A stretch of 32,600 bases of DNA from Deltaproteobacteria bacterium. Lineage in GTDB: Bacteria > Desulfobacterota > Desulfomonilia > UBA1062. Shown here piece after piece: positions 3,397-9,356 of this stretch. A program made the position numbers and the translations under genes. The stretch is from positions 1-32,600 of the forward strand of contig JAKQBR010000113.1 of the NCBI GenBank assembly GCA_029574005.1, given 5' to 3'. A model generated the notes under the pieces. The model did not search any database, had not been told where the DNA came from, and saw only the letters and a program-made list of their open reading frames with translations. Position 1 is the first letter of the stretch. The number at the start of each line of letters is the position of its first letter.

Positions 3397-4874
<1,478 letters not shown>

Positions 4875-4905
4875 AGCTGTAACCCCCCCCAGGAAAATTG
4901 ATGTC

Positions 4906-4934
4906 TCTATAGAAGATATACTCCAAGGTGTCAA
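4906..4934 (-). promoter_or_regulatory. Sigma-70-type promoter of lysS-lolC-lolD-bamA
   Basis: On the minus strand TTGACA (4929-4934) is followed after exactly 17 bases by TATAGA (4906-4911), one base away from the consensus pair. Transcription would start near 4899, about 25 bases before the TTG start of lysS. This leaves room only for the downstream TTG and rules out the upstream ATG of the same frame. Confidence 0.75.
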
Positions 4935-5033
4935 CATAAAGGGGGTAACGGTGCTATGCTGCGGCTGCTCCGGCGCGCCAGAACGTTACATACCTTTGGC
5001 TCAAGCCATCCGTGGCTTTCAGCGACCCACTGC

Positions 5034-5043
5034 GGGGTACCCC
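5034..5043. repeat. GGGGTACCCC palindrome
   Basis: A perfect 10-base palindrome in the gene-free stretch upstream of lysS (4935-5463). The same GGGGTACCC core recurs inside the larger hairpin at 5247-5291, which suggests related repeat units. Confidence 0.5.
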
Positions 5044-5061
5044 GGGGCGCACGCAGGGTGA

Positions 5062-5089
5062 GTCCAATTCGTCTGTCCTGGCGAATTGT
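5062..5089. repeat. REP-like hairpin repeat, copy 1
   Basis: A 28-base unit that starts GTCCAATTC, carries TGTCCTG in the middle and ends AATTGT. CAATTCG (5065-5071) and CGAATTG (5082-5088) form a perfect 7-bp stem. A second copy lies 67 bases on. The pair lies beside a decayed REP-associated transposase gene, so it may be a remnant of the REP family that the enzyme mobilised. That link is inference. Confidence 0.55.
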
Positions 5090-5128
5090 GATTTAGGCCG
5101 TCCTGGCTTAAGGGCGCAGGTGAACTAT

Positions 5129-5156
5129 GTCCAATTCCGCTGTCCTGCGAAATTGT
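5129..5156. repeat. REP-like hairpin repeat, copy 2
   Basis: Same ends and same central TGTCCTG as copy 1 (23 of 28 positions equal). The stem differs: CAATT/AATTG plus CGC/GCG around the loop TGTCCT. Some of the changes fall on both sides of the stem, so a hairpin is kept although the sequence has changed. Confidence 0.55.
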
Positions 5157-5246
5157 CTCGCTCCGCGGTGTTGTGCCTCACGGTCTCATTTGTTCTGGCA
5201 TGCCGTAGCGAATGACGCATAGCAACCTCGTGCTGGACGTTCCCTC

Positions 5247-5291
5247 GTCCCCTCCCCGGGGTACCCGCGAGCGGGTCGGAGGGGGAGGGAC
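5247..5291. repeat. Large GC-rich inverted repeat with nested hairpin
   Basis: The outer arms GTCCCCTCCCC (5247-5257) and GGGGGAGGGAC (5281-5291) pair with one bulge. They enclose a perfect inner hairpin ACCCGC-GA-GCGGGT (5263-5276). A perfect 12-base palindrome GCATTGCAATGC follows at 5303-5314. No coding function is seen in 4935-5463; the stretch is best described as a cluster of palindromic repeats. Confidence 0.55.
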
Positions 5292-5463
5292 AGGGAGAGG
5301 GGGCATTGCAATGCTCAGCCCTGTTTGCGAAATTCAAGAATCAAGCTTTGCCTTGGGTGTTTTCGATTGCCTCTTAGAATTCTATTTTTCTTGCCCATCA
5401 AAACAGCGTTCAAAGCCATGAAAAGACCCTTTAAATGATGGATATGCCATTAATATCAATTAG

Positions 5464-6242
5464 TTAACTCGGTTCGACCCGGAATATTTGATCCAGGTGT
5501 ATGCCACGCGATTTCAGAGCACACTGCCGCTCAACCTTTTCATCGGCCTCGGCCAATACGCTTTCAACAAAACCACTGTCACCCAATATCCGCTCATCAC
5601 TTTTCTGAAATATCCCATCTTTGCGAAGAGACAATACATTTTCCCAGCCGTTTGCGCTTCGTATCAGCCCCCCTCCGATCAAATCAGGACGCCGACCCAG
5701 AGCTCTGCCTGACGTCATATACCGATAATATGTCTGTCGAGCCCGGATTGGTCTATCGCCAAAAGAGGCAAGGACCGCTTCAATGGATTGCCAGTCATTC
5801 TTATTCTTGCCCATAAGAGCGTTATGGCCGGAGTACGGGTAGGTACCCAATGCATCTGACCGGCCCGCAATGGATTCAGGTGGATATAGCGGACCAGCTC
5901 CTTCAGGTATAGATCTTCCTGGCATAAAAGGGACTTGTATCGATTCTGGAAGACGTGCCCGCTCCGTCCATGATGCCGGTTATATGCTTAGGCATAGCCC
6001 GTCAACAACCGCCTCATGACCGTAGCGATGGGAACCCGGCCTGTTTTGAGCAGCAGATGGAAATGATTGGGAATCAATGCCCAGGCATGGCACTTGGTTT
6101 CAGTCTCCAGCACCAGGCCCCTCAGTCTACGCAGAAAATCATCGCGATCCGTATCGTCGCGAAAAATCTTACCGCGCTCAATCCCCCTCGCTATGACATG
6201 GTGCAAGGCATCGGGAGCATCTATTCGAGATTGCCGGGGCAT
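5464..6242 (-). pseudogene. Broken REP-associated tyrosine transposase (Y1/HUH family, RAYT)
   Basis: The N-terminal part (6242 down to 5988) reads MPRQSRIDAPDALHHVIARG and contains the HUH motif as IPNHFHLLL, then RRLLTGYA and a TAA stop. Reading continues in the same frame with AYNRHHGRSGHVFQNRYKS and VRYIHLNPLRAG, the standard family middle. After that the frame is lost. The C-terminal part (YPYSGHNALMGK, GRRPDLIGGGLIRS, SDERILGDSGFVE) is in another frame. There is thus one in-frame stop, in the segment that normally holds the catalytic tyrosine, and one frameshift with a small deletion. The C-terminus also looks short, ending soon after GIHLDQIF. Such enzymes are single-strand nucleases that handle REP hairpins; hairpin repeats lie just beyond its 3' end. 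The gene is dead unless the stop and frameshift are sequencing errors. Confidence 0.85.
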
Positions 6243-6301: not shown

Positions 6302-7966
6302 TTAGTTTCCTTGCCTCCTGTTCACCAGGGCCATGTATTTCGGACCGGCATAGAAATCCCGCGCGAGCCTTTCGATGCCGGGCAGCTGGTTTTGTAGGTC
6401 ACGCCAATCGCGCTGTTTGATGATGAGGTAGGTCAATGTCGGTTGAGCCAGCAGGCGCGGTATGCGAGAGATATCGTTCGAGACATACTCGTCCAGGACC
6501 TGGCGCGCGGCCGTGTCTTCAAAGCGCAGGTTGCGGTCGTGCGGGATCTGGATGACGCGGATGCCGGTATAGAAGGTGATGGAGGGCAGGCGCTCCTCAT
6601 AGGCGATGATCCGGCACGGCGCGGCCCCCCGGTCGCGCGCGATGGCGGCGGCCATGGCCTCAAAGCCGTTGATATGCTCCTGCAGGGCCGGGGCGACACT
6701 GACCGCGGCCAAAAAGAGCAGGATGTTCAACCCCGCGAACCCCAGGCGTTTCACGGCGGGCCATTTGCGCCACCCTGCCAGCATGCCAAGCCACAGGATG
6801 AGGCTGAGGACGGCGAAGGCTTCCCAGCGCCACATCGGTATCTGGATAGCATGCAGGGGGAGCCATGGCAGAGCGATCTCCCCGCCGACCAGGACGCCCG
6901 CCAGCACGAGATTGATGCGGTCCGCCCACCGCATGGCCGGCTGGGATGCGTACACGTGGAGCCAGTGGGCGATCAGGACCGCGTAGAAGGGCAGCGCGGG
7001 GAGGAGGTAGGGCGCCAGCTTGCTGCGGTTGAGGGAGAAGAAGATCAGGGGGATGAGCGTGAAGAGCAGCAGCAGATTCTCAGTGCGGTTCTCCCGGCGC
7101 GCGAGCGTTCGCGGCAGACGCGCCAGGAAGTAGGTGAACCAGAACAGCATGCCCCCGCACAAGACCAGCAGGTGGAAATAGACCGGCTCGCTGCGGTGAT
7201 GCATGTTGGTGGCGATCCGGCCATAGGTCTGGTCATGGACGAAGAATCGCAAGAGCTGCGGATTCTCACGGAGCACGGCCAAGAACCACGGCAGGAAAAG
7301 CAGGAGCGGAACGAGCATGAACACGCAGATGTCCAGGACCTTTATGGGCCGTGCCTGGCGGTGACTGAACGCCGCCGGCAGCCAGGGGAGCAGGAAAAAG
7401 ACCAGGATGACATGGCCCTTGGTGAGCAGCCCCAGCCCCAGGAAGAGCGCCGAAAGCAGGGCATCCCGGGTTTGCCGGTCATGATAGAACCAGCGGAAGA
7501 GATAGGAGACGGCCCCGGCGGTGGAGAGCGCCAGATAGAGGTCGGTGGTCAGCGAGCGGGACAGGGCCAGAAACAGCAGGGAGCTGAACAGGACCGTGAC
7601 GCTCAAGGCGGCCGTGGGCCGTTCCTCCGGGAAGAGCAGGCGGGCCAGCCGCCAGGTGAACCATAGGATGCCTAGGGCCGCGATCACCAGGGGCAGCCGC
7701 CCGCTGAAGTCATTGAGGCCCAGGAGTTTGAAGGCCGCGGCCGTTACCCAGTAGGTCAGCGGCGGCTTGTCGAAGTGCTTGATGAAGGTCAGACGCGGCG
7801 TGACCCAATCGCCGCTCACGGCCATCTCGCGGGCGATCTCGGCGTAGCGCGCCTCGCTGGTTTCGAGGTAGGGCAGATTGCCCAGGCCGTACAAGAGGAC
7901 ACCCGCCATGCCGGCCACGATGAGGAGCCGAACGAGAGGCCGGCCGAGGGCCGAAGTCCCATCCAT
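6302..7966 (-). CDS. ArnT/PMT-like membrane glycosyltransferase
   Basis: A 554-residue integral membrane glycosyltransferase of the GT83/GT39 (ArnT/PMT) fold, which moves a sugar from a polyprenyl-phosphate carrier to a periplasmic acceptor such as lipid A or protein. The first loop carries the family signature ETSEARYAEIAREM followed by SGDWVTPRL and HFDKPPLTYW, where the acidic residue before ARY is the expected catalytic region. About eleven to thirteen hydrophobic segments follow, then a soluble C-terminal domain of about 130 residues. The start ATG at 7966 overlaps the stop of the LAB_N gene (TAATG). The long open frame upstream of it is only a shadow of that gene. Last of a three-gene operon; the donor sugar is unknown. 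Confidence 0.88.
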   Translation of the reverse strand: MDGTSALGRPLVRLLIVAGMAGVLLYGLGNLPYLETSEARYAEIAREMAVSGDWVTPRLTFIKHFDKPPLTYWVTAAAFKLLGLNDFSGRLPLVIAALGILWFTWRLARLLFPEERPTAALSVTVLFSSLLFLALSRSLTTDLYLALSTAGAVSYLFRWFYHDRQTRDALLSALFLGLGLLTKGHVILVFFLLPWLPAAFSHRQARPIKVLDICVFMLVPLLLFLPWFLAVLRENPQLLRFFVHDQTYGRIATNMHHRSEPVYFHLLVLCGGMLFWFTYFLARLPRTLARRENRTENLLLLFTLIPLIFFSLNRSKLAPYLLPALPFYAVLIAHWLHVYASQPAMRWADRINLVLAGVLVGGEIALPWLPLHAIQIPMWRWEAFAVLSLILWLGMLAGWRKWPAVKRLGFAGLNILLFLAAVSVAPALQEHINGFEAMAAAIARDRGAAPCRIIAYEERLPSITFYTGIRVIQIPHDRNLRFEDTAARQVLDEYVSNDISRIPRLLAQPTLTYLIIKQRDWRDLQNQLPGIERLARDFYAGPKYMALVNRRQGN

Positions 7967-8601
7967 TACGCCGGTTGCCTCAAGAGCTTGATGTTGCGGA
8001 TGTAGACGATGAACCCGAAGGACTGGCCGATGATGAAGACCACATCCATGCGGAAGATGGCATAGCTCAGGAGCATGACGCTGCCGACCATGCTCAGGTA
8101 CCAGAAGACCGGTGGCACCGCCGACTCTCCGCGCGCCTCCGAATAGAGCCACTGGAGGGGAAAGCGCAGGTTGAAGCAGGCCTGTCCCGCCAGACCCCAG
8201 AGGTACCACAGCAGCAGGCGCTCATGCGTACGGACCATCGCGGCCTTCGGTCCGAACACGGCATAGGCGCCCACCCCGGCCAGGAGCGTGGCGGCGATCA
8301 GCCAGAACCGCCGCTGCTGGGTGCGCGAACGGGAGCGGTATACGAGGTCGAGGTTGCGCAGGTAGATCAGGAAGTTGATGACAAACCCGATGATGAAGAC
8401 CGGATCGAGACGATAGATGGAATATAAGAGCAGAATCCAGCCGGCGGCAACACTGATATACCAGAAGGACAGCGGGATAACCGAGCGGCGGGCCTTTTCG
8501 CTGTGATACCACTGGACCAGAAACCGCAGGGCGAAAAGCGACTGGCCGATCAGGCCGCTGATCTTCCAGAACGGCTCCCAGGCATTATCTATCGGAGGCA
8601 T
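7966..8601 (-). CDS. Membrane protein with two tandem LAB_N domains
   Basis: The 211-residue protein has two copies of the LAB_N (lipid-A-biosynthesis N-terminal) domain, about residues 12-85 and 132-206. Each has the order GQ..F..RF..QW..SE, then PLSFWY or PPVFWY, a membrane helix, DPVFIIG or DVVFIIG and a closing YLRNL or YIRNI. The two halves align with each other, so the gene is an internal duplication. The domain resembles small three-helix PQ-loop/SemiSWEET bundles. The biochemical role of LAB_N is not settled. Lying between a polyprenyl-phosphate glycosyltransferase and an ArnT-like transferase, a carrier-flipping or partner role is attractive but unproven. GGAGAAAGCA precedes the ATG; it overlaps the upstream GT2 gene by 17 bases. 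Confidence 0.85.
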   Translation of the reverse strand: MPPIDNAWEPFWKISGLIGQSLFALRFLVQWYHSEKARRSVIPLSFWYISVAAGWILLLYSIYRLDPVFIIGFVINFLIYLRNLDLVYRSRSRTQQRRFWLIAATLLAGVGAYAVFGPKAAMVRTHERLLLWYLWGLAGQACFNLRFPLQWLYSEARGESAVPPVFWYLSMVGSVMLLSYAIFRMDVVFIIGQSFGFIVYIRNIKLLRQPA

Positions 8602-9307
8602 TGCTTTCTCCGATCTCGTAGCGGATAAAGCGGTCCTTCATCCAGCGCACCGCCAGCAGGTCCCGCAGCCCGCCGAAGGCCCGCTCCCAGGTGCCATACT
8701 TGGTCACACCGGCGATGCGCGGCCGGTGCGAGACCGGGACCTCGATCACCCGCGCGCCCTCCAACTTCATGAGGGTCGGCAGGAAGCGGTGCATGCCCTT
8801 GAACATCTTGATGCGCTTGAGATACGTGGCGCGCATGATCTTGAGCCCGCAGCCGGTGTCCTTGATGGTCTCCTGAGAAAAATAGTTGCGCACGCCGTTG
8901 GCGAACCAGGAGGAAAACCGCTTGATCAGGTTGTCGTTGCGCTCCACCCGCCAGCCCGTCACCATGTCGTACTGCTCCAGATAGGTCAGCAGTTGGGGGA
9001 TGTCGGCGGGGTCGTTCTGCCGGTCGCTGTCGAGTGTGATGATGTACTCGCCGCGCGCCGTCTGAAACCCGGCCGCCAGGGCCGCCGATTGACCGGTGTT
9101 CTGTTTGAAATGGAGATAATGGACCTGGGGGAAGCGCGCGGCGTAATCCCTGATGAGGGCCAGGCTGTTATCCGTACTGCCGTCATCAACGCACACCAGC
9201 TCCCATGGGGCGCCTATCCGGGCCATGACAGCCTCGATCTCGGAGAAGAGCGGTCTGAGGTTCCCGGCTTCGTTATAAATAGGAAGAACCACAGAATATC
9301 GCAACAT
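8585..9307 (-). CDS. Polyprenyl-phosphate glycosyltransferase, GT2 (DPM1/ArnC-like)
   Basis: A 240-residue cytoplasmic GT-A enzyme. The N-terminus YSVVLPIYNEAGNL, the nucleotide site CVDDGSTDNS (about 40-49) and the metal-binding DSDRQNDP (near 93) are standard for family 2. The late motif HRPRIAGVTKYG is typical of dolichyl/undecaprenyl-phosphate sugar synthases. Unlike ArnC or GtrB it has no C-terminal transmembrane helices, so it resembles the soluble DPM1 type. It should charge a polyprenyl phosphate with a sugar that the ArnT-like protein later transfers. It is the first gene of the operon, with a strong ribosome-binding site (GAGGAGG) before ATG and a promoter upstream. The sugar cannot be told from the sequence. 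Confidence 0.9.
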   Translation of the reverse strand: MLRYSVVLPIYNEAGNLRPLFSEIEAVMARIGAPWELVCVDDGSTDNSLALIRDYAARFPQVHYLHFKQNTGQSAALAAGFQTARGEYIITLDSDRQNDPADIPQLLTYLEQYDMVTGWRVERNDNLIKRFSSWFANGVRNYFSQETIKDTGCGLKIMRATYLKRIKMFKGMHRFLPTLMKLEGARVIEVPVSHRPRIAGVTKYGTWERAFGGLRDLLAVRWMKDRFIRYEIGESNASDR

Positions 9308-9328: not shown

Positions 9329-9356
9329 ATAATATTCCTTAACCTCGAATTATCAA
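9329..9356 (-). promoter_or_regulatory. Sigma-70-like promoter of the GT2/LAB_N/ArnT operon
   Basis: On the minus strand TTGATA (9351-9356) is followed after 16 bases by TATTAT (9329-9334). The spot lies between the upstream ArnT-like gene and the GT2 start, in a locally AT-rich patch. It lets the three-gene cassette be transcribed on its own. Confidence 0.55.

Follow-up and report, generated by a model that had tools for sequence, protein, structure and literature searches.

How polyprenyl-phosphate monosaccharides pass across the bacterial inner membrane is a question that has been only partly answered, and it is raised by three adjoining genes in a 32,600-nucleotide stretch of DNA from a Deltaproteobacteria bacterium (contig JAKQBR010000113.1 of assembly GCA_029574005.1, positions 1 to 32,600; here called the window). 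The genes, hereafter the trio, encode a family 2 glycosyltransferase (GT2, P0001), a membrane protein with two LAB_N domains (P0002) and an ArnT-like glycosyltransferase of the GT-C type (P0003). All three open reading frames (ORFs) are intact and lie on the minus strand with the boundaries first annotated (Table 1), the GT2 and LAB_N genes overlapping by 17 nt and the LAB_N and GT-C genes by 1 nt (TAATG).

We propose that the trio constitutes a periplasmic glycosylation system of three components in which a SWEET-type protein takes the place of the flippase, an assignment to which we give an even chance, the transport itself being presumed. As judged by homology, the soluble GT2, acting at the cytoplasmic face, would load undecaprenyl phosphate with a sugar taken from a nucleotide donor. 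The LAB_N protein, as two parallel three-helix bundles with a joining helix, would then give the polyprenyl-phosphate sugar passage through the inner membrane, the invariant intramembrane arginine and glutamine of each bundle being candidate contacts for the phosphate or the sugar; products of single LAB_N genes would act as dimers. Finally, the ArnT-like GT-C would transfer the sugar to some acceptor in the periplasm. The make-move-transfer order that the initial annotation had read from these genes is supported, with the flippase step itself as a proposal.

The gene order recurs widely. We sampled 60 LAB_N loci from the phylum and 80 from GTDB genomes, with 129 distinct LAB_N sequences; 107 of these are flanked on either side by 1.5 kb or more and were thus testable. 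Because similarity to a duplicated LAB_N guided part of the sampling, percentages hold for this sample only. A GT2 gene abuts LAB_N upstream in 73 of the 107 loci, whereas 21 of the 1274 remaining genes there (1.6%) have such a neighbour, and the linkage is therefore not due to chance. A GT-C follows LAB_N or is fused to it in 48 loci, 40 of which hold the full trio, and at least one GT2 or GT-C neighbour is present in 97, leaving 10 with neither partner in the locus. The initial annotation had held that duplicated LAB_N proteins mostly lacking glycosyltransferase neighbours would speak against its reading, and this is not what these neighbourhoods look like. The repetition of the order in many phyla, roughly 40-fold above background, also argues against the idea that LAB_N is an ordinary SemiSWEET moving free sugars and that its place beside glycosyltransferase genes is incidental. 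We regard this as very improbable: kinship in sequence with the SemiSWEETs speaks for it, whereas such GT2s use nucleotide sugars inside the cell, as established for ArnC/GtrB, and LAB_N is found fused to a lipid-phosphate-sugar transferase.

The kinship itself emerges from profile searches. MtN3_slv (PF03083), the sole other Pfam family matched by most LAB_N members, is weakly matched by 38 of 50 LAB_N relatives (best 1.6e-5); P0002 is not matched by PF03083 and thus does not reach the curated cut-off of the SWEET / MtN3_slv (SLC50) family. SemiSWEETs are also the sole PDB profile matches for LAB_N (E 0.004-0.16; for P0002, SemiSWEET 4qnd at E=0.009). With these proteins P0002 would share a three-helix unit, the seven-helix 3-1-3 duplicated form with linker helix and parallel halves, as predicted from the AlphaFold model, the linker stretch and the charge pattern, and an N-out/C-in charge distribution; it differs from them in gene context. 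LAB_N thus appears to be a misnamed, widespread family related by weak sequence kinship to the SWEET sugar transporters, in agreement with the earlier suggestion that the domain has the size of a half-transporter. Saudek (PMC3281891) grouped the PQ-loop family with MPDU1, SWEET and KDELR and judged certain InterPro names, the one referring to lipid A among them, to be misleading; the PQ-loop protein Any1 scrambles phospholipids (PMC11893163). LAB_N is carried by WWE3 and another Patescibacteria record (L183, L185, L186), groups usually thought to be without lipid A, and the family name is therefore misleading. In the literature searched, which was open access with most subscription journals outside it, we found no paper giving LAB_N a function. 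In Bacteroidota genomes, many ORFs of 86-139 aa score 20-34 bits to LAB_N, near the cut-off, and may be SemiSWEETs bridging both families.

P0002 scores 185 bits against LAB_N (PF07578; curated cut-off 26.7) and is no LpxB, as its match to the LpxB model is confined to the LAB_N part (87 versus 1033 bits). It had been described as consisting only of two LAB_N domains, a description that has to be amended by an extra transmembrane helix between the halves; a hydrophobic stretch is likewise present within the 40-50 residue linker in 19 of 19 duplicates. The AlphaFold model, built on a 7-row alignment (pLDDT 82.7, pTM 0.77), has seven helices (9-37, 44-64, 67-88, 95-123, 127-157, 164-183 and 187-208), and lysines and arginines are found mainly in loops predicted to be cytoplasmic. 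An arrangement in EmrE-like antiparallel halves was rejected in view of the helix added by the linker, which would keep both halves parallel, in line with the charge pattern. Across 160 distinct LAB_N domains, positions occupied by G, R, Q, P, W and N are invariant; both halves of P0002 keep R, Q, P, W and N, with R26/R146 and Q30/Q150 located in the first helix of each half.

The GT2 was previously called soluble, correctly so because P0001 has no hydrophobic helix. Its closest PDB matches are ArnC (4e-29), GtrB sll0501 (2e-23) and P. furiosus DPMS (1e-15), and its catalytic domain is of the ArnC/GtrB/DPMS type without the C-terminal transmembrane helices, so that by homology it is the putative polyprenyl-phosphate glycosyltransferase expected of a three-component system. 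The same holds for the family: 92 of 96 LAB_N-linked GT2s have no transmembrane helix, whereas at least two are present in all 11 GtrA-linked GT2s (Fisher p 4e-12), these being the ones recognised by the LAB_N-linked GT2 profile among 20 loci around GtrA in the same phylum. This contrast allows two readings: LAB_N systems may pair soluble DPM1-like synthases with a different flippase, or LAB_N may provide the membrane part of the synthase, by analogy with what GacJ may do for GacI (PMC8035078).

The latter leads to the main rival, a serious one that the initial annotation had not considered and that we hold to be less likely, namely that LAB_N serves the soluble GT2 as its partner in the membrane, recruiting the enzyme and presenting polyprenyl phosphate, while another protein flips the product. 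Beyond the helix contrast, the GT2 is the tightest neighbour of LAB_N and overlaps it, and there are precedents in DPM2/DPM3 for DPM1 and in the GacI-GacJ-GacK-GacL system of S. pyogenes, which, like the trio, combines a GT2 and a GT-C with a small, separate membrane protein of three helices, a likeness drawn from composition. Unlike in our proposal, the three-helix GacJ is thought to aid synthesis and a Wzx-type protein to flip (PMC8035078). Such a partnership would leave several observations less well explained: fusions involve the GT-C and not the GT2, each domain has some twelve near-invariant residues, the first-helix arginine and glutamine among them, more than a plain anchor needs, members of the SWEET superfamily are mostly transporters, and LAB_N stands beside a GT-C without an abutting GT2 in 8 of the 107 loci, plus Dyella.

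The fused and duplicated forms bear directly on this. The double LAB_N forms the N-terminus of the GT-C in Cecembia rubra, in a Bacteroidales metagenome-assembled genome (MAG) and in one more Bacteroidota genome (L236), while no LAB_N-GT2 fusion was found among the 129 distinct sequences. The C-terminal part of the fusion model matches undecaprenyl phosphate-bound ArnT (5f15; E 5.5e-16, TM-score 0.79 to target). Of 395 genomes sampled in the window's phylum, 79 encode LAB_N, 78 of them with a score above the family cut-off. The domain is almost always single there, and the duplicated form occurs in two of the 78, the window's genome and one other. It is present in all 11 Bacteroidota genomes with strong LAB_N matches, and in 11 further Bacteroidota loci from ten of these a GT2 lies directly upstream in nine and a GT-C is downstream or fused in nine. 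The duplicate is also part of the same trio in a gammaproteobacterial MAG (L110), and of a locus with a GT2 and a divergent GT-C (G142/L112). Halves 1 and halves 2 of L111, L112 and L115 form separate clades in a tree, indicating therefore one shared duplication for these. A single ancient duplication for all was rejected, since the starred branches require at least two origins; the window's branches were not placed by the tree. In Dyella (G426), two loci (L242, L243) carry two separate LAB_N genes in tandem, followed directly by a GT-C and with no recognisable GT2; these are a split form of the double protein.

Fusion to the GT-C is compatible with a further alternative, that LAB_N is an MPDU1-like coupling factor (MPDU1 belonging to the PQ-loop/SWEET superfamily as well), on which the GT-C would depend to use the lipid-linked sugar but which would not translocate that sugar, e.g. 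holding the donor or assembling a GT2/GT-C complex instead (PMC4281381). The trio indeed resembles eukaryotic DPM1, MPDU1 and the PMT or ALG mannosyltransferases in combining a soluble synthase, a seven-helix protein of this superfamily and a GT-C, an analogy drawn from the literature and clan membership, in which the eukaryotic enzymes serve other acceptors. We consider the alternative improbable: no test made here ties LAB_N to MPDU1 over SWEETs at large, the Pfam PQ-loop model is absent from the families listed, and the presumed kinship comes from PMC3281891.

Several observations weigh against LAB_N as a flippase. The top match in a Foldseek search of the P0002 model against the PDB, SWEET 5ctg (E 0.52, TM-score 0.27), is not significant for this model from only seven sequences, and the SWEET claim therefore rests on sequence and helix order. 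LAB_N tracks the GT2 (73 loci) more than the GT-C (48), as a synthase partner would, and may simply supply the membrane attachment that LAB_N-linked GT2s lack compared with the transmembrane hairpin of GtrA-linked ones. Duplicated LAB_N occurs without glycosyltransferase neighbours in two Hydrogenedentota loci (L113, L114), and single LAB_N lacks such neighbours in some beta-proteobacteria; in Rhodocyclaceae and kin (L122, L133, L136, L139, L140) its locus gave no GT2 or GT-C match. LpxB is an enzyme of the cytoplasmic face. To it, LAB_N is fused in Chlamydiaceae, which would suit a membrane-docking module (PMC3937554); no LpxB domain is found in any gene of the window locus. Even the known three-component systems have proposed flippases for which flipping has yet to be proved directly (PMC11127046). 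Further, the predicted genome-level anticorrelation of LAB_N and GtrA was rejected, as 19 genomes carry both and 17.6 were expected. As to these loci, the LAB_N gene of L122 lies near rimP/nusA-like housekeeping genes; the duplicates of L113, L114 and a third Hydrogenedentota locus (L244), again with no GT2 or GT-C match, are divergent, half 1 lacking the near-invariant first glutamine (Q20 position); and one locus (G316:C68) has LAB_N and GtrA within about 2.2 kb. Set against these points, the fusion to the GT-C and not the GT2, the kinship with SWEETs, the invariant intramembrane polar residues and the Any1 precedent leave the flippase reading evenly balanced.

A known flippase linked to the pathway, which the initial annotation had named as contrary evidence, was not found. 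The 87%-complete genome gave no match to GtrA, ArnE or ArnF in a screen that left Wzx/MATE and EamA families outside, a limit that also counts against our reading; one truncated EmrE-like SMR lies on a contig without glycosyltransferase genes. No flippase of a recognised family (GtrA, SMR/ArnEF or Wzx/MATE) is linked to the trio, where LAB_N holds the slot, Wzx/MATE elsewhere in the genome being outside the screen.

Three-component systems that use GtrA, SMR or Wzx/MATE proteins have been described before (PMC11127046; PMC8035078), and we rate the trio as a variation on these, with LAB_N where such proteins would stand. GtrA-GtrB-Gtr(type) O-antigen modification and GtcA-CsbB-YfhO share with it a polyprenyl-phosphate-sugar GT2, a small multi-helix membrane protein, whose role as flippase is likewise only proposed, and a GT-C; the trio differs from GtrA-GtrB-Gtr in having LAB_N for GtrA and in its hairpin-free GT2. 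In the ArnC-ArnEF-ArnT system of lipid A aminoarabinose modification, ArnC and ArnT are the nearest PDB relatives of the trio's GT2 and GT-C, the latter matching the ArnT crystal structure (5ezm/5f15) at 4e-28 and, as expected of a three-component system, belonging to the same operon. Both fall far under the equivalog cut-offs, however (P0001 117 versus 529 bits; P0003 149 versus 567 bits), and the aspartate of the ArnT DEGRYA motif aligns with serine in P0003 (TSEARY). A cluster of arnB, arnC, arnA-formyltransferase, arnA-dehydrogenase and arnD is located on another contig (G000:C258; L227 106-5856), with a two-helix ArnC-like GT2 of 391 bits and no arnT, arnE or arnF next to it, and the trio is therefore not the Arn pathway of this genome. 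As mover of the trio's donor or of the Arn donor, LAB_N is one candidate. The special link to lipid A assumed at first is not sustained, given the arnBCAD cluster and the presence of LAB_N in WWE3 and other Patescibacteria; lipid A as acceptor of the trio is only a guess.

A second ArnT-like GT-C gene (P0004), left out of the initial annotation, lies 121 nt upstream of the trio on the same strand and is possibly part of the same cluster. It has the best ArnT-model score among the GT-Cs scored in the genome (others 88-149 bits), which makes it the best ArnT candidate among them, and, unlike P0003, it keeps the PDEGRY motif. On a further contig (G000:C167; L229 1-6804), three ArnT-like GT-C genes are interleaved with LpxL/HtrB-like acyltransferase-type ORFs, one GT-C being split by a stop codon (4610-4984 / 5021-6235). 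Of the overlapping operon behind a promoter, as first described, the overlaps stand; the promoter, 21 nt upstream of the GT2 start, is a consensus match only, plausible but unproven, the 6-kb region holding seven sites of at least 9/12 where shuffled sequence would be expected to give 3.2. Just downstream of the trio, window positions 5988-6242 (minus strand) hold a short ORF judged by eye to resemble the N-terminus of a REP-type transposase, perhaps a remnant.

Table 1. Positions in the window of the trio, the domains of P0002 and neighbouring features.
Feature	Position	Strand	Details
Soluble GT2 (GT-A), putative polyprenyl-phosphate sugar synthase, P0001, 240 aa	8585..9307	-	Glycos_transf_2 (PF00535), 114 bits; 0 transmembrane helices
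Double LAB_N membrane protein P0002, 211 aa, proposed translocator of lipid-linked sugar	7966..8601	-	PF07578 x2, 185 bits
LAB_N half 1, residues 11-90	8332..8571	-	Keeps family-invariant G16 R26 Q30 P43 W47 R82 N83
Linker, residues 91-130, with extra transmembrane helix 4 (helix 95-123)	8212..8331	-	Hydropathy 1.83; AlphaFold (AF2) model
LAB_N half 2, residues 131-208	7978..8211	-	45% identical to half 1; keeps G136 R146 Q150 P163 W167 R202 N203
ArnT-like GT-C (PMT_2 superfamily), P0003, 554 aa, proposed periplasmic transferase	6302..7966	-	Pfam PMT_2 66 bits, PMT 47 bits
Second ArnT-like GT-C, P0004, 586 aa	9429..11189	-	ArnT model 236 bits; Arnt_C partial
Sigma-70-like promoter site TTGATA-16-TATTAT	9329..9356	-	10/12 matches; consensus match only

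In conclusion, we tentatively suggest, at somewhat less than even likelihood, that LAB_N represents a new class of polyprenyl-phosphate-monosaccharide flippase on the SWEET/PQ-loop architecture, working with soluble GT2s across many phyla as a bacterial counterpart of MPDU1, and that duplication and fusion to the GT-C have given single-chain versions, which hand the donor directly to the transferase. The conserved GT2-LAB_N-GT-C order, together with the fusion in a cultured isolate, Cecembia rubra, makes of a vaguely defined domain a directly testable protein. LAB_N could also bear on the role of MPDU1, the loss of which causes a human glycosylation disorder.

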